DNA of 21,529 bases from a virus: positions 1-21,529 of the IMG/VR virus record IMGVR_UViG_3300001213_000220; one strand, written 5' to 3'. Numbering within the stretch: position 1 is the stretch's first letter; each line of letters opens with the position of its first letter. Shown here piece after piece: positions 3,881-17,926 of this stretch. A program made the position numbers and the translations under genes. The notes beneath the pieces are model-generated. The model saw only the letters and a program-made list of their open reading frames with translations. It ran no database searches and was not told where the DNA came from.

Positions 3881-4687
3881 TCAGTATTGATATCCGGGCG
3901 ATAATGGGCCGGAATACGTAGGCGGCGGGGTTTTTTTATTTAGATAATCATACGTTAAATAATTACCTATGCCACCTTGTATGGCGTTATTAATGCTGCC
4001 TGCTCCGTAATAACCGGCATTGGCTTGATTGCTCGCATTATTCATATTGATATTACCAATGTTATTGGCGGCATTCGCCCCCATCGATCCCACCTGATTC
4101 GCCGATGTCTGGCCGATACCAGCAAGCGAAGCATAGCGGTTTAATACGTTCTGTTGTCTACCATAGGCGTCCTGATTCGCGCCAATGTTCACGTTATAGT
4201 TTTGTAAATTTTGACCAAAGGCATTTTGCTGCTGTCCCATTTGGCGCGCGTATTCTTGGCCATAGGTTTGATCGGCAAGGCCTTGGCCGAACTTCTGAAG
4301 CTCTAACAATCGCGCGCCTGAGTTTAAATTCCCACCCCTTGCGGCGGATGCATCAATTGCATTAACCCCTTGCTGAAGTTGGAACTGATAACCCGGTGTA
4401 TTGGCTAACTGAGAGGGGTCGAAATTAAATGCAGCTGTCGGGGTATATTGGGGTAAAGGCGTTCCTGTATCCCCGATGTTATTCCCGAGATAACTTAACG
4501 CATTTCTGCCCGCCTCTAAATAGGGCGCTTGATTGGCTTGATTAATATCAAACTGACGCCGCTGTTCGGCAATGCTAGCCGCGCTAGCGGCGCTTGATGC
4601 GTCAGCGGCATTACTGGCAGCGTCTGCACCCAATGCCCCACTGATTAATGCCCCGCCTAATATTGCTCCACCAGTAATCCACGGCAT
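3881..4687 (-). CDS. DNA transfer / ejection protein with hydrophobic N-terminus (P22 gp7 position)
   Basis: This 268-residue protein opens with a glycine-zipper-like hydrophobic segment (residues 2-22, WITGGAILGGALISGALGA). An Ala/Ser-rich helix follows, then a long region dominated by Asn, Gln, Ala and Gly. The shape, a membrane-active N-terminus with an N/Q-rich body, is typical of phage DNA-transfer proteins that insert in the cell envelope. It leads the three-gene ejection set. The ATG at 4687 is supported by GAGAGG six bases upstream. A perfect five-base-pair GNRA hairpin (4701-4714) stands immediately before that Shine-Dalgarno site. P22 gp7 matures by proteolysis, but no cleavage site is obvious here. 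The role is inferred from context and composition. Confidence 0.65.
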   Translation of the reverse strand: MPWITGGAILGGALISGALGADAASNAADASSAASAASIAEQRRQFDINQANQAPYLEAGRNALSYLGNNIGDTGTPLPQYTPTAAFNFDPSQLANTPGYQFQLQQGVNAIDASAARGGNLNSGARLLELQKFGQGLADQTYGQEYARQMGQQQNAFGQNLQNYNVNIGANQDAYGRQQNVLNRYASLAGIGQTSANQVGSMGANAANNIGNINMNNASNQANAGYYGAGSINNAIQGGIGNYLTYDYLNKKTPPPTYSGPLSPGYQY

Positions 4688-4700
4688 ACATAACCTCTCT

Positions 4701-4714
4701 ACGTCTCGCGACGT
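4701..4714 (-). promoter_or_regulatory. Leader RNA hairpin with GNRA tetraloop before the first ejection gene
   Basis: The minus strand reads ACGTCGCGAGACGT, a perfect five-base-pair stem closed by a GCGA (GNRA) tetraloop. It fills most of the 30-base gap between the cupin gene and the ejection gene and ends 13 bases before the ATG, just 5' of the AGAGAGG ribosome-binding site. It shares the core GTC-GNGA-GAC with hairpins before the portal, scaffold and coat genes. It has no following T-run, so it does not look like a terminator. Confidence 0.55.
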
Positions 4715-4717
4715 TGT

Positions 4718-5065
4718 TTAATTATTTTCCTTGATCATAACATGATCGAGTTTCTCTAAATCCGTCTCATCGGTTGCATGGATACAAAACCATATGCTAT
4801 CTGTAATAGCCAGGATAGAATGATGCAAAAATGCTTTAATCGTTATACAGGCTGGCGCCTCATAAATCGTCTCCTTGTCTTCCACCTTCACGATAACTTT
4901 ACCCTTGGCTAAAATACTTAAATGATCGTAATTATGCGCATGAGTCACCGCCATGTTATTAGCAGGTAATTCCATTTGCCTTGCGTACACACCAGCGCTA
5001 AAGTGGTGAACTGTTTTACAGTCCGTCTGTGGTAAAGCCTTTAATTGGTCGATTAATTCTTGCAT
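4718..5065 (-). CDS. Cupin-fold virion-cluster protein
   Basis: This 115-residue protein carries a clear small-cupin signature. HAHNYDH at residues 42-48 has His42, His44 and His48 placed as metal ligands. It is followed by L-x-x-G-K-V-x-V, a Y-x-A-P-x-x-I-x-I strand pair, His81/His82 and His97. The start chosen is the ATG at 5065, which overlaps the fibre gene's stop as TAATG. A longer frame extends to 5155 but would run inside the fibre gene and has no ribosome-binding site. It lies between a fibre gene and the ejection genes, so it is probably translationally coupled to the fibre. Cupin proteins recur in phage structural clusters but their job is unsettled. Sugar binding, a structural trimer or dimer role, or an enzyme acting on surface glycans are all possible. 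The fold is well supported and the function unknown. Confidence 0.75.
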   Translation of the reverse strand: MQELIDQLKALPQTDCKTVHHFSAGVYARQMELPANNMAVTHAHNYDHLSILAKGKVIVKVEDKETIYEAPACITIKAFLHHSILAITDSIWFCIHATDETDLEKLDHVMIKENN

Positions 5066-6141
5066 TAAGTAATTACCCAGGTAACGCGATCCGCTCCGCC
5101 ACCAGCGGTATGAGCCCCCCCGTTCGCCTGGCTCTGCACATAGAACACATGCCATCCTGATATAGCAGATATCGTCAATGCGCTATCTGTTGCTATCCAG
5201 GTATAACTGGTAACGCTGGTTGATACTGTTGGGGATGAGTAACCTACTGTAGTGTGATGAACTCTCTGTGCGGAGGAATAACCGCCCCCAACTTGATCTT
5301 TGGCGTGAAATCGAAAGGTGATCGTTGTCGCCGTGGGGGGGATATAAACATAGAGAGAGGCGAGCACATCGTCGCCAGTCCATACAGTATCAGCCCCGCT
5401 ATTGGCTAGCGTGATATCACATGTTCCTTGAGTGATCCCAGCGCCATTAGCCCAATCAATTTGGGTTTCCTTTACTGGGCTTGCTGTTAATGCTGCGGCA
5501 AAGGTGGTGTATCCAGTCCCGCCCTGCCCTGCCGTTAAGGGTGTAGTTAATCCAGCCAAGCTGGTAATGTCAGAGTTAGCGCCTTTGGCGGCCTTGGCGG
5601 TGATTTGCGTTTGAATGGCCGAAGTAGCCCCACTCAAATAACCAATTTCTGCGGCTGTCGTTGTCGCGGGAGTTAAAATACCACTGGCGGTGGTAACGAT
5701 AGCTCTTGATGCAGTGAGAGAATGCAGGCCGTTAATCTCGGAGCTCGTTGAAGTAACACTACCAAAGCCTTTTGATATAGAGTTATACCCAGTTCCTGCG
5801 GCATTAACTTTAAGCGTAACAGAATTGTACTGCTCGATGGTAAGACTTGTTGACCCGCCATCTATCGTATTACTTCCCGCCCTAGCAACCGTCACCGCTC
5901 CCGATCCAATATTAGAGACAGTTACCTCATAGTCCCCCGTCTCGGCGGCGGCCATCGTGGCGGCATCACCCAGGGTAACGGTAAAGGGAGTTGCACTATT
6001 ACATTCAATTTGTGATCGATTATCCCCCACTAAACAACTGTAAGTTGTCGTCTTGGCCGACACCGTGCGCTTAAAGTTCGTATCCGCTTCCGTCGGAGTA
6101 AGGTCGGTTCCTTTCGATGCTCTGGTGCGTAAAGTAGGCAT
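5065..6141 (-). CDS. Tail fibre / appendage protein
   Basis: This 358-residue protein has a low-complexity beta-rich composition (Thr, Ser, Ala, Gly). It includes the motifs EINGLHSLTASRAIVTTASG (about residues 135-154) and AEIGYLSGATSAIQTQI (about 163-180), which recur widely in phage fibre shafts. A GQGGTGYTT segment near residue 205 is another fibre hallmark. The C-terminal 120 residues lack these repeats and probably form a receptor-binding or trimerisation head. The N-terminus (MPTLRTRASKGTDLTPTEAD) is likely the virion-attachment end. The ATG at 6141 shares one base with the stop of the gp10-like gene, and the stop shares one base with the cupin start. In P22 the needle gene 26 follows gene 10, but this protein does not look like the gp26 coiled-coil needle, so it may replace it or add a side fibre. 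Confidence 0.75.
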   Translation of the reverse strand: MPTLRTRASKGTDLTPTEADTNFKRTVSAKTTTYSCLVGDNRSQIECNSATPFTVTLGDAATMAAAETGDYEVTVSNIGSGAVTVARAGSNTIDGGSTSLTIEQYNSVTLKVNAAGTGYNSISKGFGSVTSTSSEINGLHSLTASRAIVTTASGILTPATTTAAEIGYLSGATSAIQTQITAKAAKGANSDITSLAGLTTPLTAGQGGTGYTTFAAALTASPVKETQIDWANGAGITQGTCDITLANSGADTVWTGDDVLASLYVYIPPTATTITFRFHAKDQVGGGYSSAQRVHHTTVGYSSPTVSTSVTSYTWIATDSALTISAISGWHVFYVQSQANGGAHTAGGGADRVTWVIT

Positions 6142-7670
6142 TATTTAATCCCTGCAATAATATCGCCCTCTAAGGCGTAGATTTTCAATCGTTCTGTACC
6201 TGCATATTCTAGCTCAAAATTCCGCTTTCTGAACGATCCGCTTGCATTAATCCGCTCAAAAACAGACGTATCAATAGTGCGGTCAGACCCAAAAGAGGCG
6301 TTGTTCTCATTAGCCCATCGGATCGTTAGGGTATTTGCATTCGCCGTTTTATCAATTACCGGGACCATGTTAGTGATTTTTTTCATTTTCGACGTACCGC
6401 CATCATAAAGGCCGGTCCGTGTTTTTATCGTAATCGGGTAAGCGTTTGAGCCGGCGGCAACAGCGGCAACAACCCACCCCGTGGCCACCCATCCGGACTC
6501 AACCCAGCCCTTGCCTCCTAAAGTATCCCGGGGTATTTCATTGTCAATGACGGTAAAAAGATCGCCATTCGCAAAAATCCCCTCGCCCGTTCTTGGAGTG
6601 GTTCCCGTGCGAATCGTCCAGCTGACAAGAGGAAAATAGGACTGTCCTCCCACGTTCGTGGACCATGATGACCACATACCAGAGGCTGGGTCATAACATA
6701 AAGAAGTCTGTATTTGATCTGTTCCTGACAATAGATAGACGCTCAAAATATACAGAGTTCGCCCATCCCCGGAAAGACCAGAACCGACCAGACTATACGA
6801 GTCATTAATAACGGATTTAGTCAGGAAGGCATCTAGCGTGGGGGTGGATATTTTCGCGGGAGCGAAGTTATTTAAAACATAAACACCCAGTGATCCAGAA
6901 GCGTCACTGCCTACAAAATAGATTGTATCCCCATCGACATGAACTGACTCCCCGGAGGCGCAGCCCATCGAGTAGTAAACATCCTGCCGTCTAGTTAATG
7001 GGCTCGCTGGAGAGGCAATACTAGCGTCGTAGAAAAACTCCATCGAACGAGGGCCAAAAACCACTAAATGATCATGATGTTTGGCTAAATAGACCCCACC
7101 ATCGGGTTCGCGTTCGGCGGTGAGGTAAGCCAAAGCGTTGAATGATCCCGCAGTGGAAAGGTCGCTATTATAAATAATCCCCGTCTCACCCAAAACGAAA
7201 AGGTAGCTGTCAAGAATCGCTCCGCCGAATGCCAAGCCTATCGCTGGGGTCTGTTTCGGGGGAAAATCGACATCTGTAATCTGAGTAAGTGTGCCACCGG
7301 TTGAAATAGTCCAGCCTTGATCGTTCTGTGGATCAAGTAAAATCAATAATGTTCCCAATTCAAGAAAATAGCATTTTTGAGTGCCTGCAGTGATTGTTCC
7401 TATCACGGTTCCGTAAGTGCCTTTGTAAATCGTATTGTTGTTAACGAAATATAAAGCGGAATTGTAGGCCCAGTAATAAATCGCCCGGCCTTTCTGATCG
7501 GTTACTGTTAAAGAGGCGTCTTCAAACACATCAATAGAGGGTCGTTGAGTTAAATAAGGGCCCGATGCGCTTTTAATGACAATACCATTTGTTACGCCAG
7601 ACTCCATGTCGGTAATAGACCCAGAGGAGAAAGCATTTATATGCAAATCCTGAGCAAGGGGGATTCTCAT
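6141..7670 (-). CDS. P22 gp10-like packaged-DNA stabilisation / tail accessory protein
   Basis: This 509-residue protein resembles the P22 gp10 family (packaged DNA stabilisation protein, about 470 residues in P22), which forms the hub below the portal-gp4 ring and holds the needle and tailspikes. The opening MRIPLAQDLHINAFSSGSIT and the downstream pattern support this. That pattern includes a GPYLTQRPSI segment near residue 35, repeated short beta strands such as ALYFVNNNTIYKG, and HDHLVVFGPRSMEFFYD near residue 205. Together they suggest a beta-propeller-like protein. It directly follows the gp4-like gene with a TGATG overlap, the same order as in P22. It is likely a structural component with no enzymatic role. 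The family call is fairly secure by order and motif style. Confidence 0.82.
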   Translation of the reverse strand: MRIPLAQDLHINAFSSGSITDMESGVTNGIVIKSASGPYLTQRPSIDVFEDASLTVTDQKGRAIYYWAYNSALYFVNNNTIYKGTYGTVIGTITAGTQKCYFLELGTLLILLDPQNDQGWTISTGGTLTQITDVDFPPKQTPAIGLAFGGAILDSYLFVLGETGIIYNSDLSTAGSFNALAYLTAEREPDGGVYLAKHHDHLVVFGPRSMEFFYDASIASPASPLTRRQDVYYSMGCASGESVHVDGDTIYFVGSDASGSLGVYVLNNFAPAKISTPTLDAFLTKSVINDSYSLVGSGLSGDGRTLYILSVYLLSGTDQIQTSLCYDPASGMWSSWSTNVGGQSYFPLVSWTIRTGTTPRTGEGIFANGDLFTVIDNEIPRDTLGGKGWVESGWVATGWVVAAVAAGSNAYPITIKTRTGLYDGGTSKMKKITNMVPVIDKTANANTLTIRWANENNASFGSDRTIDTSVFERINASGSFRKRNFELEYAGTERLKIYALEGDIIAGIK

Positions 7671-8389
7671 CAGCCACCTTCGTAAATAGATCGGCCAGTA
7701 CTATGGCTGTTACGGATGCTGATCGCCGCAGCTGTCTCCGTCTTTGAGTAAACAGGGGCATGGTTCATCGACTCTAGCCTACGTAAGGAGTTAGCCGCCT
7801 CCCGGACAACGCCCGGGGGAACAGCGAGAGAGAACATGGGACTAAGGGCTATCGCCATATTATGTTCAATCGCCCATTGATACCCGGGTGGAAGGGAAAG
7901 GGTGTCTGTCGTCGCCGTTATCGTCTGAAGTGGGGCCTGATAGTTTAGGAAAAACGTCAGGCTTGAATCATGGATCGGATATTCATAAATCGTACCCAAT
8001 GGGTATCCGGGATCGTAAAAGATCACATCAGGGATGCTGGTAGTTTGAGTTTTGCTCGAATAGGAATCGTAACTTTCTCTATTTTGTAGAATATCCAGCG
8101 GAAAGTCGGTATTAGTTGAATTCCTGAAAAAGGCGGACAATATTTTGTCCGGGCGTGTTCCGTTTAAATCTCCACCTGATCCTATCGTTCTGCTGACGCT
8201 GTTAGCCGCCCAGGTATATGAATCCTGCGCAATGCGAAAAATCAGACTTGAATCTACCCCCCACGAATCCAGCATGGAAATGATGATTCTCAGCGCTTCC
8301 GCGCTTTCATTTGCGGTTAGACTCCCACCGGGCTCTTTCGCGCCAAGTTTAATAGCTGCGCTAAGCAGGATATCAGATATTGCTGCCAT
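7670..8389 (-). CDS. P22 gp4-like packaged-DNA stabilisation / head-completion protein
   Basis: This 239-residue protein matches the P22 gp4 style. The N-terminal helical segment (ILLSAAIKLGAKEPGGSLTA, then EALRIIISMLDSWGVDS) is typical of the proteins that bind the portal's lower face and plug the packaged head. The middle has the Y-D-P-x-Y-P-L-G-x-I-Y-x-Y-P region near residues 123-137 seen in this group. The C-terminus has a helical PPGVVREAANSLRRLES stretch. It is longer than P22 gp4 (166 residues). P22 gp4 also has peptidoglycan-hydrolase activity, but no catalytic motif is clear here. It overlaps the preceding HeH/LEM-like gene by 17 bases and abuts the gp10-like gene, as expected for the P22 neck module. 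Confidence 0.8.
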   Translation of the reverse strand: MAAISDILLSAAIKLGAKEPGGSLTANESAEALRIIISMLDSWGVDSSLIFRIAQDSYTWAANSVSRTIGSGGDLNGTRPDKILSAFFRNSTNTDFPLDILQNRESYDSYSSKTQTTSIPDVIFYDPGYPLGTIYEYPIHDSSLTFFLNYQAPLQTITATTDTLSLPPGYQWAIEHNMAIALSPMFSLAVPPGVVREAANSLRRLESMNHAPVYSKTETAAAISIRNSHSTGRSIYEGG

Positions 8390-8669
8390 TTAAGAACGCC
8401 TTGATTGAGTCGATACCCAAACGATGATGCGGCTTTTTACCGGTTATTTCTTCATAGCGTGCGGCGAGTGCTTCTCTGTCTTCATTTTCTTCCAGGGCAA
8501 TTTTTTGAGTTTTTGCTTCAGGAATGACTTTTTGCGCTTCTGTGACTTTCAACGAATAGAACTCCGCTTCCGTAACTGTTTTCCATCCTGACTTTTCGTT
8601 TAAGATTGCCTCAGTATGGTTATTCGCCATGTGTCGACCGTGTTTTTCGTGTATTTGAAAAATAATCAT
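8373..8669 (-). CDS. Small HeH/LEM-like structural-module protein
   Basis: This 98-residue protein has a charged, helical middle. Its C-terminal segment LAARYEEITGKKPHHRLGID, followed by SIKAFL, matches the HeH/LEM pattern: a short helix, the 'Y-x-x-x-T-G-K-K-P-H' turn and a second helix. Such motifs occur at the ends of many small phage head-tail proteins and may bind DNA or another virion part. An AGGGG ribosome-binding site precedes the ATG at 8669, two bases after the upstream gene's stop, and the 3' end overlaps the gp4-like gene. No enzyme motif is visible. It is probably a minor head or connector protein. The motif recognition is moderate and the role is inferred. Confidence 0.6.
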   Translation of the reverse strand: MIIFQIHEKHGRHMANNHTEAILNEKSGWKTVTEAEFYSLKVTEAQKVIPEAKTQKIALEENEDREALAARYEEITGKKPHHRLGIDSIKAFLNGSNI

Positions 8670-8670
8670 T

Positions 8671-9924
8671 TCATCCCCTAATAAGTGCGGATCGCTCTAT
8701 AAAATCAATTCTTTTCCCTGAATTCTGACACCATTTCGATAGGGAATCCGCGTAACCCGGATCGTCCGCATCATCGCAAATGATCGTTTTGGTCCCTCCG
8801 AAGTGGTCAAAAAAACCCATCCGTGACCCAATGACTCGTGGTGGACCATCGTTTAATCCCAAGGAAAATTCACTTGGAATATCGTTTGGTAAAACATACC
8901 ATCCGTCCTTAATATCGCACAATTTGACCTCGATGTTTTTAAGTCCCGATTGTTGGATCATCCCATTAATAGTGTTAAACCAATCTTTATGATGCTCTAA
9001 ACAATAAACCTTTTGATCGGTGGAGGCGGCCAGAACTAGCGTGGTCAAACCGCTGCCGGTTTCAATAATTGGGCCATCGGCTTTTTTCCCCATTATGGCG
9101 CATAACATTAGCACATCCTCAAGTGCGCCCCATTGATTACCGATAAATCTGCGCGCCTCGGAAAAAAGCGTCGGATCGAACTCATTGGTCTTGATTCGGT
9201 CAATCATGTACGTTAAGGTTTCTTTACCTTGACGACGCAGGGCTGCGCTTAAACTGTCGTAGATAGTTGACACGGCGATATGCCCCAAATGCAAATCGGC
9301 CGCCGCGTGAAGCTTTCCACCTTTAGCGACCCACTTTTTGCAGAAACTTAAATCTCCTCCCCATCTGGCACCATTATCAAATGTTCGCTCGAAAAGGATC
9401 GGTATTTTCATCCTACGATCATTTCGCGCCCAATATTGATTCGCGTCAATAGCAAGCGTCTCTATTACGTGTCGTTTGATCTTCATGAATCCCGTGGGAA
9501 GACCGGCGACTTCTAAAAGGCCGTTTTCAGGTTCAACCACACCAGGGATGGTAATAACTGGCATGATTTCTTTCGATGCTTCGCTGTCTTTGCGATAGGG
9601 ATAGATCCCGCCGACAATATCAACATCAAATTGACATAATTTAATTAATTCCGATGGCTCCCATGCAACGTCGGCATCTAAAAAAACTAACTCAGTGCAA
9701 TCGCTTAACAAAAATTCCTGTACAAGTGAGTTTCTCGCATCGTCGACATGACAATTGCCCGTTAACAAAAAATAGGCAGACTCTATCCCATTTTCGGATA
9801 AAGCCTGCCTAGACCTCTGGATTGAAAAAACATAACCAGGAGATGGAGAGTCATAAACAGGGGTACATAAAGCCACCTTCTGTCCGTTCGTCTCCCTACC
9901 CTGGTCTATATAGAGCTGGCTCAT
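8671..9924 (-). CDS. Glycosyltransferase-methyltransferase fusion protein
   Basis: This 417-residue protein has two apparent domains. Residues 15-220 look like a GT-A glycosyltransferase: DDARN (61-65), then VFLDADVAWEP (80-90) carrying a DxD metal-binding motif (Asp83, Asp85), GGIYPYR (105-111), the acceptor-side GGDLSFCKKW (189-198) and LHLGHI (211-216). Residues 255-417 look like a class I S-adenosylmethionine methyltransferase: the glycine-rich loop IIETGSGLTTLVLAA (286-300), an acidic residue after strand 2 (CLEHH, Glu310), NDGPP (358-362) and IICDDADD (381-388). It sits inside the structural operon between the coat and neck genes. It might therefore glycosylate and methylate virion proteins, or modify host surface glycans. 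No ribosome-binding site is strong, and its ATG sits directly after the preceding stop. Domain calls are fairly secure and the substrate is unknown. Confidence 0.75.
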   Translation of the reverse strand: MSQLYIDQGRETNGQKVALCTPVYDSPSPGYVFSIQRSRQALSENGIESAYFLLTGNCHVDDARNSLVQEFLLSDCTELVFLDADVAWEPSELIKLCQFDVDIVGGIYPYRKDSEASKEIMPVITIPGVVEPENGLLEVAGLPTGFMKIKRHVIETLAIDANQYWARNDRRMKIPILFERTFDNGARWGGDLSFCKKWVAKGGKLHAAADLHLGHIAVSTIYDSLSAALRRQGKETLTYMIDRIKTNEFDPTLFSEARRFIGNQWGALEDVLMLCAIMGKKADGPIIETGSGLTTLVLAASTDQKVYCLEHHKDWFNTINGMIQQSGLKNIEVKLCDIKDGWYVLPNDIPSEFSLGLNDGPPRVIGSRMGFFDHFGGTKTIICDDADDPGYADSLSKWCQNSGKRIDFIERSALIRG

Positions 9925-10152
9925 TTAGCCGCCCGTATTAATTAATCCAAGCGTCCGCAGCGCCGCATAAAGACGATTGATCTTTGTTTCATTAAGTGTC
10001 GTTGTTGCGGTCGCAGTTGTTACTGCGGTGATCGCAACTTGTACGACGGGAGTTGCTCCAAAAAAGCCCACCTTTTCTGTCGCTGATTTACCTACTTGCG
10101 CACCGGTTGGCGAATTGTAGGTAGCCTGTTCATATTCAGTTGGTTGCGTCAT
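9925..10152 (-). CDS. Small head-fibre / decoration-like protein
   Basis: This 75-residue protein follows the coat gene. The ATG at 10152 (MTQPTEYEQATYNS) is preceded by AGGAG six bases upstream. A longer frame reaching 10224 has no ribosome-binding site and overlaps the coat gene in full. The VGFFGATPVVQ segment (about residues 28-38), a Thr/Ala-rich stretch and a C-terminal helix (KINRLYAALRTLGLI) form an architecture common in small phage structural proteins. In that architecture the helix may trimerise and the 'FFG-x-x-P-x-x-Q' part is a small beta unit. Its place right after the coat gene, with overlapping ends, suggests a co-expressed virion component. The role is inferred. Confidence 0.65.
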   Translation of the reverse strand: MTQPTEYEQATYNSPTGAQVGKSATEKVGFFGATPVVQVAITAVTTATATTTLNETKINRLYAALRTLGLINTGG

Positions 10153-10162
10153 GTTGATCTCC

Positions 10163-11371
10163 TTAGCTTGTGATCCGGCAGGCCCATTGAGGACGAATCG
10201 CCGCGTAACCGTACAACATATCAATACGAGTTAACATCTCATCATTTCGGATGTCGCTCGCTTGCCAGACGCGTACCGACAGGCCATCCTGCGTCTTAAT
10301 AACGCATTTAGCGGCATCAGACATCAGAGGCAGCTCGGCGGTGGCGAACGTGAACGCATCTTTATGATACATTAGGTTTTGAACGTAGCTTGTTGAGGCC
10401 GCGCCGATAAAAACCAATGCCGCAGTGGTCAGGCCAGAGGGTACAATATCAGCACCATTAGACGCTGCCACATTCTTGCGTGCGCCAGTAATATATATCG
10501 TTGGGGCAATAAGCAAGTTGGTAGAGGTTGATCCAGACAGAATCGTGAATTGTTTCAGATTGCTGTAGGCCGCTTTTGTTTCTGGATGGCAATCATACAC
10601 TCCGGCAATCGTAAAGACCTGCCCAGCGGTTGGAGTTGCAAAACCCGTTACCGTTAAATCCGCATCACCGTCAACAATGGTGTACGTATTCAGGGTGACC
10701 GAGGTCACGTCCGAGTTGTTGGTCATGGTCCAAACGCGCTCGTTCTCATAAAAGTCCGCCATACCGGTACGACCGATCATACCCTCGCGATACTGTTCTT
10801 TGATTTGAGCCGAATCTTGAAACAGACCTTTCAAGCCATTCACCAATCCGCCCATGGTAACGGAGTCCATCTGTACAAACCGTTGGCCGTCTTTTGGGGC
10901 GAGCTGTTGATTGAGTTTTGCGCGGGCAGCGCCGATTGCTGCTAAATCAGCAGGGGGTGTTCCGGCTGTGCCGGCGACGTTATAGACCAGTTTAGAGCAG
11001 CCCTGGATAACGTCCGATTCGATACCGGAAATCATCGAGGCCATCGCGGGCTCTAAATGGATTTTAACGAAGTCTTGCAGATCTAACGCCAACTCACGCG
11101 AGTTAAAACGCATATCAACGCCATCCTGTGTTGCGGTAACCAGGGATGTACTTTGTTCGGTAGCATCCTGGACATCCATAACACGAGAACCTTGGCGACG
11201 GGTATATTGAGACGGCAGACGGATACGGAGCGTATCCCCGATCTTACCGTTGCTTTGTCCAAACGAGGAGTCGAACTCCCGGTTAATAGTACCAATAAAT
11301 GACGCTTTCTCATGCGCAAGCGCTAAAGCGGCATTTCCGATCTTGTCAATAGTCAGTAATGAATTAGCCAT
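10163..11371 (-). CDS. Major capsid (coat) protein, P22 gp5-like
   Basis: This 402-residue protein has the P22 coat family appearance. The N-terminal arm MANSLLTIDKIGNAALALAH leads to a segment with REFDSSFGQSNGKIGDTLRI (about residues 31-50). A helical spine follows around 105-140, then an inserted beta-rich domain around residues 210-285 (VTSVTLNTYTIVDGDADLTV and following), in the place of the telokin-like I-domain of P22 coat. The C-terminus has YGYAAIRPQWACRI. P22 coat is 430 residues. It follows the scaffold gene, as expected. The ATG at 11371 is preceded by a hairpin (11378-11389) whose GGGAG is the best Shine-Dalgarno site, about nine bases from the start. Assembly presumably involves HK97-fold subunits built around the scaffold. 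The assignment is strong from order and sequence. Confidence 0.88.
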   Translation of the reverse strand: MANSLLTIDKIGNAALALAHEKASFIGTINREFDSSFGQSNGKIGDTLRIRLPSQYTRRQGSRVMDVQDATEQSTSLVTATQDGVDMRFNSRELALDLQDFVKIHLEPAMASMISGIESDVIQGCSKLVYNVAGTAGTPPADLAAIGAARAKLNQQLAPKDGQRFVQMDSVTMGGLVNGLKGLFQDSAQIKEQYREGMIGRTGMADFYENERVWTMTNNSDVTSVTLNTYTIVDGDADLTVTGFATPTAGQVFTIAGVYDCHPETKAAYSNLKQFTILSGSTSTNLLIAPTIYITGARKNVAASNGADIVPSGLTTAALVFIGAASTSYVQNLMYHKDAFTFATAELPLMSDAAKCVIKTQDGLSVRVWQASDIRNDEMLTRIDMLYGYAAIRPQWACRITS

Positions 11372-11377
11372 ACTCTA

Positions 11378-11389
11378 TGTCTCCCGACA
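11378..11389 (-). promoter_or_regulatory. Leader RNA hairpin with GGGA tetraloop holding the coat gene's ribosome-binding site
   Basis: The minus strand reads TGTCGGGAGACA, a four-base-pair stem with a GGGA (GNRA) loop. The GGGAG that should pair with 16S rRNA spans the loop and the first stem base, nine bases before the ATG. Fourteen bases (ACTGTCGGGAGACA) are identical to the site before the portal gene. It lies in the 38-base gap between scaffold and coat genes. Confidence 0.6.
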
Positions 11390-11409
11390 GTGAGCAATAT
11401 GTTATACCT

Positions 11410-12192
11410 CTAGCGGCCTCTGAGCTTATTCCATTTTTTTAGGAATTGATCGTAAGGTTCGCTGTCCTGAATCTCATCGCTGCTAGTTTTTTTACCACCA
11501 ACAGGTTTAATGGGTTCAGGCGCTTTAGAGGGCCTAATCGTTCCCTCACGCTTTGCTTCTAATTTTCCGGCAATGCGTGTGATTTCAGCCACCTGCCTTA
11601 CAAGGGAGAGTTTTGCGATACGCGCAGCCTCTTTGGGATTGCTGCCCAAGTAGTACGTGGTATCAACCTGGATACCCGGATCATCGAGTTCAAATATTGC
11701 TGACGCCATCTGTGGGGTAATCTGGATGTGATTACCTGATACCACATCCTCGAAATCAGGATGCTTAGCGATACCATTGGAAAATAATTCATCACGGCTT
11801 GATTCAAAATCCGCCTGCGTGACAACCGGCTGCACGTTGTTTTGTGCGTTTGATTGTTGTGTAGGCTGCCGCTGCTTTTCATGGTATGCCAACTTCGCGT
11901 CGAAATATTCGTCGATACCTGGAAAATCATCCAGCTTTGGCGGTTTAGGTGCTTGCTGTATTGCTTGTGCTTGTTGCTGCTCAAGCATGGACATCAAGCG
12001 CGCATTTTGCCGCCTCAGTTCTCGTTCCTTGTAAGCAATTTCTGCGAGTTTGCGATCTTTAGGATCAGGTTTAGTTACTGGTTCTAAGGGCGCAGCGATC
12101 GACGCATCCGTTGATTCGGTAGGTGTCGATACGGGATCGACGGGAGAAATATCGCCGGGTTCGGCTGGCGTTGCCGTTGCTATATCAGTCAT
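11410..12192 (-). CDS. Scaffold protein (P22 gp8-like)
   Basis: This 260-residue acidic-then-basic protein lies just before the coat gene, the normal place for a scaffold. The N-terminal third is Pro/Ala/Asp/Thr-rich and likely disordered. A Gln-rich helix follows (REL-RRQNARLMSMLEQQQAQAIQQ, shortened here). The C-terminus (SEPYDQFLKKWNKLRGR) is a short basic helical tail, the part that in P22 scaffold binds coat. The ATG at 12192 is preferred because AGAGG stands five bases upstream. A longer frame to 12234 has no ribosome-binding site, but a hairpin and part of the leader lie in it. A promoter candidate at 12272-12299 and the leader hairpin at 12211-12222 would give scaffold and coat their own control. 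The function is inferred from order, composition and the basic tail. Confidence 0.8.
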   Translation of the reverse strand: MTDIATATPAEPGDISPVDPVSTPTESTDASIAAPLEPVTKPDPKDRKLAEIAYKERELRRQNARLMSMLEQQQAQAIQQAPKPPKLDDFPGIDEYFDAKLAYHEKQRQPTQQSNAQNNVQPVVTQADFESSRDELFSNGIAKHPDFEDVVSGNHIQITPQMASAIFELDDPGIQVDTTYYLGSNPKEAARIAKLSLVRQVAEITRIAGKLEAKREGTIRPSKAPEPIKPVGGKKTSSDEIQDSEPYDQFLKKWNKLRGR

Positions 12193-12210
12193 TCGTACCT
12201 CTAATAGGGG

Positions 12211-12222
12211 CGTCTCTCGACG
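12211..12222 (-). promoter_or_regulatory. Leader RNA hairpin with GAGA tetraloop before the scaffold gene
   Basis: The minus strand reads CGTCGAGAGACG, a perfect four-base-pair stem with a GAGA (GNRA) loop. It lies 18 bases upstream of the chosen ATG and upstream of the AGAGG ribosome-binding site. The same core GTC-GNGA-GAC precedes the portal, coat and first ejection genes, with an outer pair of C-G here and T-A at the portal and coat genes. Confidence 0.5.
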
Positions 12223-12271
12223 GGCCATCTGCATGCGGGCGTCATCACGACGAGCCTTGCAGTTATTAATG

Positions 12272-12299
12272 ATATTAGCATATCAGGGTGTAGTGTCAA
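12272..12299 (-). promoter_or_regulatory. Candidate sigma70 promoter for scaffold and coat genes
   Basis: On the minus strand a perfect -35 box TTGACA (12294-12299) is followed by a 16-base spacer and a -10 box TAATAT (12272-12277). The base triplet TGC just upstream of the -10 gives an extended -10 (TGnTAATAT). The -35 overlaps the last codons of the preceding gene. Transcription would begin near 12265, giving a leader of about 70 bases that includes the hairpin at 12211-12222. This could supply extra scaffold and coat mRNA. Confidence 0.5.
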
Positions 12300-12742
12300 T
12301 TTAACGTCAAGAGGGCCACAATTAACACGTCCTCTTCCCTTCTTCTGCGCCGTTTTGCGATCAGCCTTTGTTCTTCGGCTATTTTCTGTATCTCTGCTTT
12401 TTTCTGTTCGGCTTGTTTTTTTATCCATTTAAGGTACAGCGATTTATAAATAAGGTGCTGTTCCCTAAGCCTTAACCGTAAGATCAATTCAAAATCTGAG
12501 GATGTTTCGTTGACCGGATCGAGGCTTTCGGCCATATCCTCCAAGATAGGCTTGGCTTTTTCTTCCTCTTTATCTGTCGCGCGGAACTTTTTTAGTTTTA
12601 TCCTGGGGCGATCCAAATCATAACCAAAATAACCCCCCGAATAGGTTTCCGTGACCGGAGTTATCGGGATTACTTCGGCGCGACCTGAGAATGATCCATA
12701 ACGCCGACCGCTGTAACCACTGCCGGTTAATTGGGTGATCAT
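12296..12742 (-). CDS. Unknown coiled-coil protein of the head module
   Basis: This 148-residue protein is of unknown function. Residues 1-45 are Gly/Tyr/Ser-rich (MITQLTGSGYSGRRYGSFSG). The C-terminal two thirds form a highly charged long helix, rich in Lys, Glu and Arg (KKQAEQKKAEIQKIAEEQRL), with a run of five Arg just after it. The protein ends in a hydrophobic DVLIVALLTLN tail. It overlaps the previous gene by four bases (ATGA), so it is translated with it. Its position before the scaffold suggests a head-associated role such as a second scaffold-like or internal protein. I recognise no domain. The basic helix could contact DNA or the scaffold, but this is a guess. Confidence 0.6.
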   Translation of the reverse strand: MITQLTGSGYSGRRYGSFSGRAEVIPITPVTETYSGGYFGYDLDRPRIKLKKFRATDKEEEKAKPILEDMAESLDPVNETSSDFELILRLRLREQHLIYKSLYLKWIKKQAEQKKAEIQKIAEEQRLIAKRRRRREEDVLIVALLTLN

Positions 12743-14460
12743 ACAATCGTAAAGGTGTCACCACTTACGGGGGCCGTGGTCAAGGCGGTGACAGTCAGCA
12801 CACCAAGGGCTGTGCTGGCGGTGATATCAGTCGCCTGACCGCGTAAGTTGGCTGTCGTAGTACCTTGACTAAATATCACAATCCGGCCCTTGAACTGATC
12901 GATGACAGCTGCTGCTGGATCAATGGCGCTAGTTACGATGCTGGTAGTGCTGGATGCATCCCCGACTGTTCCGGTGACGATCCCTTGGGTGCTGAGTGCT
13001 AAACGTGCCGCTGCAGTGGCCACGCCGTTAATCTGATCGGCATTGGCCGTAACTCTCGCGGTAACACTGCCGACAGCGCCGGTAACGGAACCAACCGCCC
13101 CAGTTACAGAACCAACCGATCCAGATAGGCTTCCTGTTATGTTCATGGTTTGATCGGGTAGATTAATATTGGTCAGACCTGCCCCCGCTACACCTATTTC
13201 CGTCGTATCAGTCAAGATGCTTTGGGCCGTAGCCTCCAACGCCAAACCGGATTGTATTTGCGTAATAGGGTGGATATGGGTGGCTTTAATCACAAACGCC
13301 ACGCCATCTACCGGCGCGGAAGTTAATGCCTCATCAAGAGTAATCGTGCCGTTTGTGCCTGAATATGACAATATCGGCTTGAATTGCCCCGATAATGCGC
13401 CACTCGTAAAAATCAGCAATCCATCGTTCCAGAAATTACTTACCTGAGTAAGATTTGTTTTAAATACAGTTGTCGTGGCCGTCGCATCTTGAACGACACC
13501 TGCTGTGTATTGATACTCCTGACCCGTTGAGTATGACACGAATATCTGATCAACCCGTAGAGTGGCGCTGGTCAATGCGGCGCTATAGAACCGGATGCGA
13601 ACCTTACCAATATTGGCCCCTGTCCCAACATGACCGGTAAATAGGGTATACGTACCCGTGTCATAGGTTGATCCGGATTTTCCAATAATCGTCCCGACCG
13701 TCTGCCAGGCCGAACTTACCCAGTTGTACGCCTGGATACTCACGTCATCACTTGCCCCGTTGGAATAGGCGGTAATACCGACGGCCGAAGGCAGTCCTTG
13801 TACTCCAATGTCAAATTGATAATACAAATCCAGCGTGCCGGCGGTGTCAGTATGTGTGTGCGGCGTCGCATCAAGCAATGCCGTGCTTGCGTAAGTACCC
13901 GATGTCTGGGTTCCAGTCGTTAAAACATAGGATTCGGCTACCACGTTAACTAGTGTGCCCACGGCAGCGATATTGCTAATTTGCTGCGCCATCCCATCGA
14001 GATTAAGCGCGCCCGCGGTCGATATCGGCAAACCGCCAGCGGCATTGGCCGCGGCATTAGGCATAGCCGTCAGCCCAAGACGTACAGTGTCTTGAGGGTC
14101 ATAGGCAACCAGGTCAACCTCAAGCACCACGGGTACCATATTGGCGGCACCTTTGAGCATGATCACAACGCTATTCACTCCCGTGGCAATCGCCGCATCA
14201 GGGATGTCAAACCGATACAAGCCAGGTGTATTAGTTGCATCGACCTCCACAAATCCGCCTGATGAAAATGCACCGGTTACCGTTTGCGTGGCCAATGTAA
14301 TGGCGGACCTAGCAGCAAGTGGTCTAACGTAGGACGCGACCAAACTTGCGGTATTGTAGGCCAACCCCGTCAACCCCGCCCCGGTAGTGACGGAGCTATC
14401 CTGTACAAAAACATACAGCGGGATACTCGTTGATGCCTTTTTAATCGTTAATTTAGCCAT
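12739..14460 (-). CDS. Virion appendage or decoration protein with GSVTGAV repeats
   Basis: This 573-residue protein is Thr/Ala/Gly/Val-rich and predicted to be mostly beta. The first 130 residues (MAKLTIKKASTSIPLYVFVQ, then GGFVEVDATNTPGLYRFDIP) resemble the beta-sandwich N-terminal module found in several phage baseplate and head fibres. The middle (about 165-320) resembles a carbohydrate-binding or jelly-roll domain, for example WVSSAWQTVGTIIGKSGSTY. Residues 447-467 contain three tandem GA/SVGSVT units that could form a narrow trimeric stalk. A final domain has TASTALGVLTVTALTTAPVS. It overlaps the previous gene by eight bases and the next by four. The product is probably a surface structure of the head, but a role in glycan binding is only inferred. 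Confidence 0.6.
   Translation of the reverse strand: MAKLTIKKASTSIPLYVFVQDSSVTTGAGLTGLAYNTASLVASYVRPLAARSAITLATQTVTGAFSSGGFVEVDATNTPGLYRFDIPDAAIATGVNSVVIMLKGAANMVPVVLEVDLVAYDPQDTVRLGLTAMPNAAANAAGGLPISTAGALNLDGMAQQISNIAAVGTLVNVVAESYVLTTGTQTSGTYASTALLDATPHTHTDTAGTLDLYYQFDIGVQGLPSAVGITAYSNGASDDVSIQAYNWVSSAWQTVGTIIGKSGSTYDTGTYTLFTGHVGTGANIGKVRIRFYSAALTSATLRVDQIFVSYSTGQEYQYTAGVVQDATATTTVFKTNLTQVSNFWNDGLLIFTSGALSGQFKPILSYSGTNGTITLDEALTSAPVDGVAFVIKATHIHPITQIQSGLALEATAQSILTDTTEIGVAGAGLTNINLPDQTMNITGSLSGSVGSVTGAVGSVTGAVGSVTARVTANADQINGVATAAARLALSTQGIVTGTVGDASSTTSIVTSAIDPAAAVIDQFKGRIVIFSQGTTTANLRGQATDITASTALGVLTVTALTTAPVSGDTFTIV
13060..13122 (-). repeat. Three 21-bp tandem repeats coding GA/SVGSVT units
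   Basis: Three consecutive 21-base units (13060-13080, 13081-13101, 13102-13122) encode GAVGSVT, GAVGSVT and GSVGSVT. Most differences are at third codon positions, so the repeat is old and kept at protein level. It lies in the stalk-like part of the appendage protein. Confidence 0.7.
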
Positions 14461-15070
14461 TTAGTCCACCGTTTAGTTGCTGCATTCCGCCGGACATATT
14501 TACCGGGATGATAGTTCCTCCGGTCGACGCGCCATTGGTCCAGTCCTGTACGTCTAAATCCGCATCGTTTGTCGCCTGAGCCCAGGTATAAAACCCGTCA
14601 TACCCACCGGTTAAGGGAGTTCCATCCGAATAGCTGAGCACGTTAACCCCGGCCACATCGCCATAGATGGTGCTACCGGTACGACGTACAGTAATCGTAT
14701 GGGCGCTACCGTAGGCCTGTGTGTAAGCCGACGAGCTTGCCGAATAAGATCCATTTTTCTCCAGATTCGCGCCAGTAAAATTAGCCCCGGACGAGGTGTT
14801 ATGGTAAAAATTATATCCTTCATTTGCTGATCCGGCGTTAATTCTCACGCCTCGATTACCCGGCTGAACGCTGGTTTGTGGCGCTAGCGTGACCTGTGAG
14901 TATTGCTGAGTTGATCCATTGTAATAAGCGGCGCAGTAATTGTAGGTGCTATTAGGGCGGGCATTATTGCTCTGGATTTGTCCAATAGCATTGCCATTTA
15001 TGGAGGTCCAGTTCGCATCGTGGGTGCTCCATGATGTGCCGTTTGTGTCTGTGAATGTTTCGGTCGTCAT
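14453..15070 (-). CDS. Jelly-roll (concanavalin/LamG-like) surface protein
   Basis: This 205-residue protein has the composition and pattern of a lectin-like beta-sandwich: MTTETFTDTNGTSWSTHDAN (which recurs as the start of such phage domains), then W-T-S, RGVRINAG, TITVRRTGSTIYGDVAG and DGFYTWAQATNDADLDVQDW near residues 157-178. This resembles the laminin-G/concanavalin fold used to bind glycans. It ends in a short Gly/Asn/Met tail. It overlaps its upstream neighbour by four bases (ATGA) and its downstream neighbour by eight, which implies tight co-expression. It and the 573-residue protein may form a capsid-surface glycan-binding structure. Fold confidence is moderate; role is inferred. 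Confidence 0.6.
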   Translation of the reverse strand: MTTETFTDTNGTSWSTHDANWTSINGNAIGQIQSNNARPNSTYNYCAAYYNGSTQQYSQVTLAPQTSVQPGNRGVRINAGSANEGYNFYHNTSSGANFTGANLEKNGSYSASSSAYTQAYGSAHTITVRRTGSTIYGDVAGVNVLSYSDGTPLTGGYDGFYTWAQATNDADLDVQDWTNGASTGGTIIPVNMSGGMQQLNGGLNG

Positions 15071-15510
15071 GCGGGGATCGTCTCAGTCAACCCGGTGGCT
15101 TGAGATAGGTCGATGTTCTGGCCTTGCAGCCAAAGCAATAAACGTTGCTCGATGGCTTTTAACGGAGTAGTTAAGGTTAATCCCGTGGTATTAATTCCCA
15201 GCGCCTGGAGTTTAGTGATATTCGCCACCAGCACGGCCCTGGTGAGCCGAATGACATCGGTTCTTGCATCGAGCTGAGTAAAATCAGTCGCATCGATACG
15301 TAGGATATAAAACTGTTTCAGCCATTGGCGATTACCCAGCGCATCCCGTGCTATCTCGGCAGGCAACCAGCCCATCATGCTAGTGATATTGCCGGTAGGG
15401 ATATTGGCTTCCAGAGCGGCCAGATATTTTGGCTCAATGCCGTATTCGGTCGCGGGGAGGTCGGGCTTTACTCGTGCGACCGCTGGGATTAGGTAGTATC
15501 TGACTGTCAT
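15067..15510 (-). CDS. Unknown structural-module protein
   Basis: This 147-residue protein has no domain that I recognise. It begins MTVRYYLIPAVARVKPDLPA and has a WLPAEIARDALGNRQWLKQF segment (about residues 48-67) followed by a strand pattern (FYILRIDATDFTQLDAR). The C-terminal 60 residues look helical. It overlaps the portal by four bases (ATGA) and the lectin-like gene by four. Coupling in both directions suggests that it works with the portal or with the appendage proteins, perhaps as an assembly or attachment factor. Confidence 0.6.
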   Translation of the reverse strand: MTVRYYLIPAVARVKPDLPATEYGIEPKYLAALEANIPTGNITSMMGWLPAEIARDALGNRQWLKQFYILRIDATDFTQLDARTDVIRLTRAVLVANITKLQALGINTTGLTLTTPLKAIEQRLLLWLQGQNIDLSQATGLTETIPA

Positions 15511-17879
15511 AAAACATTACCCATGTCGGCGGCTTGCAATCCGATCAGATTTCCCTGGGCATCGCGTTGGGCCATCATATCGTTGATGTTGACGATATCT
15601 CCATTAGCGTCTCGCTGGATTCTGATCGTTTTAGATTTCCTTGCGCTGTCATTTAATCCCTGAACGTTAATGGCAAGATTATTAATCATCTCGGCCAACA
15701 CTTCGGCATTAGGCTTGCTAACGAGTCCAGCTTGATATTCCTTTAATGCCATTTCTCGGTAAAAACGGGCATCGGCATGCTCTTCTTTCATCTTCGCGAT
15801 GATGATTTCTTTCTCGGCTAGCATTTCTGGTTCGGCGCTGTCATTTTGTTGCATTTCCATGGCCTGGAGTCGTAGATTCGCCGACTGTTCCTTGACTTCG
15901 GCCTGGAAGACTTTCTTTGCCGCTTCGAGTTCTTTTCTCGCAGAGTCGACAGCCTGTTTATCCGCGCCGACCTGCTGAGCGACTTGATTAAGCTGTTGCT
16001 CATGTTGGGCTAATTGCTGTCCTTGAGCTTGTATTTGTTGTGCGGCTTGTTGTACTTGCATCATCATGGCTTGGACTTTCGGGTCTTGGCCCTGTTCTTT
16101 GCTCATTTCCATTTGTTTAATCTCGGGCAAGAGCGTGACTTTCATGCGTTCGGCTAAAGCGTCGGCACCGGGGAAATCGCTATATTTGAATGCTAGATCA
16201 CCGATGACGTTCATCAATCCCGGTGCTCCGCTTAGGAGTTGCATGAAATTCGCAGCCGCCTCCATTCGTTTGGACGAGTAGCTCGGTCCAGTTGACACGG
16301 AAACATCGTATTTACCCACGTTGAGATTGTAGATTTTTCCGATCTCGCGGTTAAACTCGTCCATATTGGGTTGTACGGCATTTTGCTGATCAGGATTAAG
16401 ACTCACCATTTTATGCTCGCCGCCTTCTCCCAGCATTCGCACAATACGGGCGGTGTCGAAATATACCGGTATCCACTCCAGTAAAATTCTTCCGCATTGT
16501 TGAATGGAGCGGGCCAGATTATCGGGGTAATGGTAATTGCCTACCGCCCCCTGTGATTTTTGCTCCTGTAGAGCGATTCCGGATTTTTCTTGTGAGCGAG
16601 CCCCAACAGTAGGCCCATACATTCCGGCGGATGCCTCGATCCCATGTTCGGTGTTTTGTAGCATTTGCTGCCAACCTGGCGCAATTCCTGCCGGCGGGGT
16701 GCGCTGCGGTGCGGGGAGTGGATTACCTGCGTCATCCAGGTGGTTGTAGCTCAGCAAAGTAATGCTGTCCCGATTCGCTCGGGCGTAATCACTCTCAAGT
16801 CCTTTGGTTGCATCAATCGCCGCAACCCATGGCGCTCTTGGAGCAAGGGCGACGTGCTCGATAAATCCAGCGTGGGCATAATTATGCAAACGTTGAGGGT
16901 CCATCATTGCCTCAAGCGCGCCAGACAATCGGATGCTTCCATCCGGCATGACAATCTCATTCCCTATGACCTTAATGACCGGGATGTACTGACCAGGTAA
17001 TTCTTTCTCATCCAAAATTTCCTTGGAGCTTAGCTTGTACCATTTCACTTTTTTGATCGTCGAATCCCTGGATTTAACCGGGGGAGGAACGGGAATACCT
17101 TGGGCTATAGCTTGTTTTGAGACTGCCTGGTAGTCCTTATCTGTCATGGTAGATCCATCTTGAAATTGATGGATCGTGATCGTTTCCGGGATGATACAGA
17201 AATATTCGGCAATACGTATTGCATCGCTATCAGACCAACTGTCGGAGTTATCAAAGCCAACTTCTTCCGCGTCGGGATATTCGATCTTAAAGTCTTTACG
17301 GGGAATGTCTTCCCAGATCACGACTTCTTTTACATCCGCTCCGTCACCTTGGGTATGTGGGCCCATGGCCACGGAGAAACGGTTGTGAATTCGGCGGATC
17401 TTGATGTCTTGGTCGAAGGACAGCGGATCAGAATACTCCGCCAGAACCCGAAAATACCCAAAACCCCCATCGACAGCTTGCTCACCGGCGGAGGTATAGA
17501 CCATTGTCGCCTCTGACTGGTCCTCGATGTGCCGGATGATTCCGGTAAAAATTTCCGCCGTATCGGGATCGGCGATATCATCCACCGGCCGAATCTTGAT
17601 TGCGGCGCGGTTTTGGCGTTCCTCGTTGACGATTTGACGGATGTACTGGTTTGTTTTATCTAGGACGGGGCAAGCTCGGGTTCCGCCGTCCTGGTTGGGG
17701 TTCTCACGATCTTTTTTTATCGCATCTGGCCACTGCTCTAAAGCGCGGAACTTGATCGCTTCTTCAGCGCGGTGGATATTATCGTATTCCCGCTGCTGAT
17801 AGTCTTCTAGGCAGTCTTTCGCGGCCTGGATGATTTTGGCGGGATCGTCGGAATAGTTTTCGTCTTCAGTGTCTGCCAT
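15507..17879 (-). CDS. Portal protein, P22 gp1-like
   Basis: This 790-residue protein matches the P22 portal family (P22 gp1 is 725 residues), the dodecamer through which DNA enters and leaves the head. It has the acidic N-terminus, the RQIVNEERQNRAAIKIRPVD motif (residues 81-100), the AGEQAVDGGFGYFRVLAEYS stretch (about 131-150) and a wing region with YFCIIPETITIHQF near 228-241. Further on are AGMYGPTVGARSQEKSGIAL (about 423-442) and the clip/stem part. The C-terminal region, residues 600-675, is Gln/Ala-rich helix (QVQQAAQQIQAQGQQLAQHE). It may be a longer version of the P22 portal barrel, the helical tube that reaches into the capsid. A hairpin containing the GGGAG ribosome-binding site precedes the ATG. 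The identity is strong. Confidence 0.9.
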   Translation of the reverse strand: MADTEDENYSDDPAKIIQAAKDCLEDYQQREYDNIHRAEEAIKFRALEQWPDAIKKDRENPNQDGGTRACPVLDKTNQYIRQIVNEERQNRAAIKIRPVDDIADPDTAEIFTGIIRHIEDQSEATMVYTSAGEQAVDGGFGYFRVLAEYSDPLSFDQDIKIRRIHNRFSVAMGPHTQGDGADVKEVVIWEDIPRKDFKIEYPDAEEVGFDNSDSWSDSDAIRIAEYFCIIPETITIHQFQDGSTMTDKDYQAVSKQAIAQGIPVPPPVKSRDSTIKKVKWYKLSSKEILDEKELPGQYIPVIKVIGNEIVMPDGSIRLSGALEAMMDPQRLHNYAHAGFIEHVALAPRAPWVAAIDATKGLESDYARANRDSITLLSYNHLDDAGNPLPAPQRTPPAGIAPGWQQMLQNTEHGIEASAGMYGPTVGARSQEKSGIALQEQKSQGAVGNYHYPDNLARSIQQCGRILLEWIPVYFDTARIVRMLGEGGEHKMVSLNPDQQNAVQPNMDEFNREIGKIYNLNVGKYDVSVSTGPSYSSKRMEAAANFMQLLSGAPGLMNVIGDLAFKYSDFPGADALAERMKVTLLPEIKQMEMSKEQGQDPKVQAMMMQVQQAAQQIQAQGQQLAQHEQQLNQVAQQVGADKQAVDSARKELEAAKKVFQAEVKEQSANLRLQAMEMQQNDSAEPEMLAEKEIIIAKMKEEHADARFYREMALKEYQAGLVSKPNAEVLAEMINNLAINVQGLNDSARKSKTIRIQRDANGDIVNINDMMAQRDAQGNLIGLQAADMGNVL

Positions 17880-17884
17880 CTTTG

Positions 17885-17898
17885 CTGTCTCCCGACAG
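17885..17898 (-). promoter_or_regulatory. Leader RNA hairpin with GGGA tetraloop holding the portal gene's ribosome-binding site
   Basis: The minus strand reads CTGTCGGGAGACAG, a perfect five-base-pair stem with a GGGA (GNRA) loop, five bases before the portal ATG. The purine-rich GGGAG that should act as the ribosome-binding site is in the loop and upper stem, about nine bases from the ATG. Fourteen bases are shared with the coat gene leader. Confidence 0.6.
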
Positions 17899-17912: not shown

Positions 17913-17926
17913 GTTCCCCGTGGAAC
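17913..17926 (-). promoter_or_regulatory. Small hairpin right after the Cys-rich gene stop
   Basis: The minus strand reads GTTCCACGGGGAAC, a five-base-pair inverted repeat with a four-base loop. It begins immediately after the TAA of the Cys-rich gene and sits 14 bases upstream of the portal leader hairpin. No T-run follows, so it is not a standard intrinsic terminator. It could protect the 3' end of the packaging mRNA or separate it from the portal leader. Confidence 0.35.

Follow-up and report, generated by a model that had tools for sequence, protein, structure and literature searches.

The described elements closest to the one reported here are the coat operators of the RNA phages MS2, PP7 and Qbeta, which are likewise short hairpins at a ribosome-binding site with fixed loop bases. 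Those operators occur as one site per RNA genome and are bound by one cognate coat protein, whereas here a hairpin with a GNGA loop occurs at many sites per DNA phage, before genes of many types and in unrelated phages. Hairpins recognised by CsrA/RsmA resemble it in that their loop is conserved, rich in purines and placed at the Shine-Dalgarno site of a leader, but CsrA needs GGA in the loop, while the common loops here were GTGA, GAGA and GCGA (GGGA was found at only 7 distinct sites) and no csrA was found in carriers. GNRA loops that contact the minor groove of a helix constrain their third and fourth positions but leave the second free, the same pattern that we observed; such contacts are known from rRNA, from introns and from RNase P, but not between mRNA and ribosome. 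The RegB and RegA sites of T4 are also a case of phage post-transcriptional control at many ribosome-binding sites (PMC3014915), but they are unstructured GGAG or A+U-rich sequences, mostly in early genes, in contrast to structured sites in the leaders of virion genes. Lambdoid boxB is a five-bp hairpin with a GNRA-like loop that is present more than once per genome; however, its loop has five bases and it acts on transcription with boxA, whereas the GNGA hairpin abuts start codons and it was the four-base GNGA loop that was enriched, a five-base variant (12240–12252) being an extra. No Rfam 15 family matched at gathering score (the sole weak match, SorX at 22.4 bits against a cut-off of 46.6, lay elsewhere in L245), and no description of the element was found in the open-licence papers searched, in agreement with the preliminary description of this locus, whose author knew of no described element of this form in P22-like phages. 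The GNGA hairpin before virion genes looks like an undescribed control signal.

The stretch of DNA analysed (the window), an IMG/VR virus record of 21.5 kb, carries a late operon of P22-like type on its minus strand, comprising terminase, portal, four open reading frames (ORFs) without a PHROG, scaffold, coat, tail genes and ejection genes. The portal gene (15507–17879, −) matched phrog_156 (E 8e-109), the scaffold gene (11410–12192, −) phrog_8865, and the first DNA-ejection gene (3881–4687, −) phrog_598 (E 4e-26), while the major head (coat) gene (10163–11371, −), which is P22 gp5-like, was assigned by phrog_283 and a coat-protein search. No PHROG or Pfam match was obtained for the four ORFs that separate portal from scaffold (148, 573, 205 and 147 aa; 12296–15510, −). 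The most likely scaffold start is 12192, rather than the longer ORF start at 12234, and the scaffold hairpin therefore falls within the leader.

Within the window, GTCGNGAGAC had exactly four matches (4703–4712, 11379–11388, 12212–12221 and 17887–17896), all on the minus (coding) strand and none on the other, whereas 100 shuffles averaged 0.09 matches and never gave more than 1. These matches are the loops and inner pairs of the four GTC-GNGA-GAC hairpins reported in the preliminary description, and RNAfold predicted all four stems in their sequence context. In the portal leader, CTGTC-GGGA-GACAG (17885–17898, −) carries the sole Shine-Dalgarno sequence (GGGAG) within its loop, and its stem ends 5 nt before the ATG. 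The coat leader has TGTC-GGGA-GACA (11378–11389, −), with the sole Shine-Dalgarno spanning the loop and 3' arm and 6 nt from stem end to ATG. Separate Shine-Dalgarno sequences follow the other two stems, AGAGG downstream of CGTC-GAGA-GACG in the scaffold leader (12211–12222, −; its stem ends 18 nt before the ATG at 12192 that is the likely start) and AGAGAGG downstream of ACGTC-GCGA-GACGT in the first ejection gene's leader (4701–4714, −). The motif scan and RNAfold identified all four, and those of the portal, coat, scaffold and ejection leaders also have counterparts in relatives. This placement of the Shine-Dalgarno sequences, and the pair outside the core (T-A at portal and coat, C-G at scaffold and ejection), were as first described; the loop types had been named correctly but listed in the wrong order, the order of the sites being GGGA, GAGA, GGGA and GCGA. 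The statement that the core is seen nowhere else held for exact matches, the one-mismatch site at 9890 being intragenic and incompletely paired. No further Y-GNGA-R hairpin was found on the coding strand of the window, and each of the four gaps of 20 nt or longer in the operon, counted from the portal leader on, holds one of the hairpins.

Two other hairpins were observed in these leaders. CGTC-GTGAT-GACG (12240–12252, −; from sequence and RNAfold), a look-alike of the GNGA element with a five-base loop, is positioned upstream of the scaffold GAGA hairpin, and two hairpins are also frequent in the scaffold leaders of relatives. In the portal leader, a GTTCC-ACGG-GGAAC hairpin was predicted upstream of the GNGA hairpin (17913–17926, −).

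Relatives were obtained with a coat-protein search, which returned 80 viral contigs; a portal search run directly against viral contigs gave no match. The coat leaders of seven of them (L009, L010, L011, L012, L014, L017 and L024) have kept a GGGA-loop hairpin 12–14 nt before the ATG, although the leader sequence around it differs among them. Sites precede the scaffold, coat and first ejection (phrog_598) genes in three near-complete relatives and also a tailspike-like gene in two of these three, and in L050 (G011) and L008 a site precedes the portal gene. One exact match in relatives lay inside a lysis-region gene and looks like a chance occurrence. The exact sites of each related virus record searched were all on a single strand, which was the late-gene strand in the records whose genes were read. 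Leader scans of relatives and gene-by-gene reading thus support the earlier claim that the sites are restricted to virion-gene leaders; gene calls were mechanical, and some counts of sites within ORFs may reflect wrong starts. The preliminary description would also have the hairpin recur in the same leaders of close relatives, which was true of many but not of L005, whose coat protein is 81% identical, or of L007. On a coat-protein tree of 75 rows, presence of the hairpin was only mildly clustered and needed 14 gains or losses, at least 11 of which were forced by supported branches. Its history is one of repeated gain and loss, not simple inheritance, and its absence from many close relatives indicates that it is not essential.

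The general form of the element was A-N-G-Y-Y-[G-N-G-A]-R-R-C-N with a stem of 4–6 pairs, within a wider consensus GYY-GNGA-RRC whose outer pairs covary. The closing and second pairs are either C-G or T-A, G-C is almost invariable at the third pair, and the fourth is C-G, T-A or A-T. Y-GNGA-R hairpins were present in 21 of 75 coat leaders, compared to 0.44 in dinucleotide shuffles and 1 on the reverse strand, and in 17 of 73 scaffold leaders, compared to 0.62 in shuffles and none on the reverse strand. Over the whole set, the coding strand had 57 leader sites and the opposite strand 2. Part of the covariation in the first four pairs follows from the search itself, which required four-pair stems, but the fifth pair, which was outside the search criterion, formed in 25 of the 46 distinct cores, where 27% would be expected (p 1e-4). 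With no stem requirement, GNGA tetramers in leaders gave 43 four-pair stems compared to 2.2 when the 3' arms were shuffled, while GNAA tetramers gave 8 compared to 2.0. Pairing was preserved through base changes in relatives, and scans of shuffled sequence did not yield the sites. The selection on RNA structure that had been proposed is well supported by the leaders of relatives, the shuffles and the covariation counts.

Specificity for the loop was evident when GNGA was compared with GNAA. Coat leaders contained no GNAA hairpin (0/75, against 21/75 for GNGA), and GNAA, GNYA and other loop classes were at background level in coat and scaffold leaders; an element consisting of generic GNRA hairpins was rejected because the same leaders showed no GNAA enrichment. 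In viral contigs, we used a matched control in which the third loop base alone was changed (GNGA to GNAA): TAACGCY-GNAA-RGCGCYGG, with four versions pooled, was found in 13 contigs at 9 distinct sites, none of them in a leader, whereas the long form with a G[ACG]GA loop was found in at least 120 contigs (54 of 79 distinct sites were read in leaders) and that with a GTGA loop in 57 contigs (45 of 51 distinct sites in leaders). Distinct long-form sites among the matches listed numbered 51 for GTGA, 37 for GCGA, 35 for GAGA and 7 for GGGA. Across 33 other whole phage records, CGYYGNGARRCG (CGYY-GNGA-RRCG) had 102 sites, 85 of them complementary and 84 of these 85 on one strand per record, compared to 29 sites for its GNAA counterpart CGYYGNAARRCG, of which 9 were complementary, about the chance share. 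For hairpins that had not been used to fetch the contigs, there were 53 coding-strand leader sites and 6 reverse sites with GNGA, compared to 11 and 8 with GNAA. Loop positions one, three and four (G, G and A) are fixed and position two is free. Because GNGA is fixed and GNAA is excluded although it should fold equally well, these results mean that the loop is read and is not merely stabilising.

Exact-pattern scans covered 2.9 million viral contigs and returned 33 stretches with CTGTCGGGAGACAG-N2-6-ATG, for which a rough chance estimate was about 20, and 57 stretches with TAACGCYGTGARGCGCYGG, for which it was about 2; most TAACGCYGTGARGCGCYGG sites directly precede an ORF. The proteins encoded downstream matched portal, tail tube, tail spike and ejection families and major head families of several types (P22, SU10, epsilon15 gp7 and Mu gpT). 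In G417, G420, G429, G439 and G442, sites stand before genes for portal, scaffold, major head, ejection, tail fibre and terminase proteins, and also before some short family-less genes. One inovirus-like contig, with a zot-like gene and a phrog_7106 coat gene, has the hairpin before the coat gene. G420, with six sites, had no detectable protein in common with G003, G004 or G006. The hairpin is therefore not limited to P22-like phages but recurs in unrelated phages, so that its earlier framing as an element of P22-like phages was too narrow; inheritance within the P22 lineage alone was rejected on the basis of these unrelated carriers and the patchy presence on the coat tree. In the inovirus-like contig (L370; 4338–4600, −), the coat gene is preceded by a CGCT-GGGA-AGCG hairpin and its leader also has a second hairpin, GGTGC-AATTTC-GCACC.

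Isolate phages, covered by short BLAST queries and by a small number of fetched genomes, yielded no clear carrier. No leader sites were recognised in P22, epsilon15, BPP-1, BcepC6B, P26218, PAE2, MW202573, DSL-LC05, KT1, phi3LM21, EBPR podovirus 1, MW202691 or Stevie (some scanned in part), and the matches of 30-nt BLAST queries to named phages that were inspected were intragenic or covered the Shine-Dalgarno alone. The long form was present in 0 of 398 Pseudomonadota genomes, where only ~2 were expected at viral density (an estimate), so that this absence carries little weight, and the short form in 8 bacterial genomes had 19 sites, 2 of them complementary, which is no enrichment. Use of this signal is accordingly not known for any host gene, but the bacterial genomes sampled may not be those of the carriers' hosts.

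We favour, with some reserve, the reading that these sites are one cis-acting RNA hairpin that is read via its GNGA loop at translation initiation by a factor that unrelated phages share. The hairpin would stand directly before, or be wrapped around, the Shine-Dalgarno of virion genes with their own leader; the loop would be read by a shared host RNA-binding factor or the 30S subunit, the most likely readers; and this reading would allow virion genes to be started in coordination with one another, without dependence on the gene upstream. A role in translation initiation is suggested by the constrained distance to the start codon, which from the stem end peaked at 11–12 nt for the long form and was commonly 2–6 nt for hairpins with the Shine-Dalgarno in the loop; distances were not uniform, some hairpins lying 20–60 nt upstream and some having another hairpin between. 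Carriers include genes for an abundant protein (coat) and a low-copy protein (portal), so the hairpin is not simply a high-expression signal. As G420 shares no detectable protein with G003, G004 or G006, and as searches of 20 carrier records found neither a bS21 gene nor csrA (0/20, with positive controls detected), a host-supplied reader, or the ribosome, would be the simplest candidate. A search for a single-subunit RNA polymerase, which bears on the idea of an N4-type hairpin promoter, found none and did not detect its positive control either.

A narrower and less probable form of this reading is that the GNGA hairpin beside the Shine-Dalgarno might be a further determinant of bacterial translation initiation, its loop contacting a host initiation factor or the 30S subunit, and might have been acquired repeatedly by unrelated phages to drive the synthesis of virion proteins. 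Crystal structures of groove-docked GNRA loops distinguish the GNGA type from the GNAA type (PMC3494683), which makes an RNA receptor as possible as a protein. The hairpin resembles helix 36 of 16S rRNA, whose loop at 1077–1080 is listed in the same work (PMC3494683); this likeness is no more than a lead, as the loop in question is already docked within the ribosome.

The sites could instead be operators at which a phage-encoded regulator, such as the scaffold protein, controls translation. When unassembled, the P22 scaffold protein represses its own synthesis, and such a regulator would fit the sharing of a site by several virion genes of one phage, the frequency of two hairpins in scaffold leaders, and stems that cover the Shine-Dalgarno in the portal and coat leaders. 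We nevertheless consider it unlikely, given that carriers include phages without a detectable shared protein as well as an inovirus, that a single coat lineage gained or lost the hairpin at least 11 times, and that csrA and bS21 were absent from the 20 carriers. The shared RNA-binding regulator suggested in the preliminary description is thus possible, but a phage-encoded one common to all carriers was not detectable.

Somewhat more doubtful is a role in mRNA stability or processing, with a 5' hairpin protecting or defining transcript ends in the late operon. Short hairpins in the intergenic gaps of long operons, before separately expressed genes, are in keeping with such a role, but GNAA loops, which are structurally equivalent stabilisers, were avoided on the same stems, the position of the hairpin is tied to the start codon, and stems of 4–5 bp are too short for RNase III; the plain stability element offered at first is accordingly disfavoured. 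We consider a boxB-like signal for transcription antitermination or pausing, as in lambdoid nut sites, very improbable: although the short stem, GNRA-type loop, Y-R closing pair and recurrence along one transcription unit are shared with such signals, the hairpin adjoins the start codon of each gene and is not near a promoter, its loop has four bases and not five, and no boxA was evident by eye in the leaders. Ordinary stable hairpins or chance resemblance, conceivable for a core of only 10 nt, can practically be dismissed because the GNAA and shuffle controls contradict them.

If the hairpin is read by a shared host factor or the ribosome at translation initiation, it would help to explain how portal, scaffold and coat proteins are made in differing amounts from polycistronic late operons, and the difference between GNGA and GNAA on the same stem would bear on a host-read code for translation control in phage late genes. 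The signal is compact, follows a sharp sequence rule, is common to phages with unrelated capsids and is absent from Rfam, and it could serve to mark virion genes in unannotated phage DNA.

A second type of hairpin was also observed in scaffold leaders, with a stem of 5–7 pairs and loops such as CGNYT or GGTTTT, often preceded by TAC and located ~25–35 nt before the scaffold start. It was present in 24 of 73 scaffold leaders (among others those of L005, L015, L018, L029, L041, L057, L060, L063, L065 and L084), whereas the reverse strand gave 5 and the coat leaders 4 of 75. This second type lies directly upstream of a GNGA hairpin in L034, L042 and L067.
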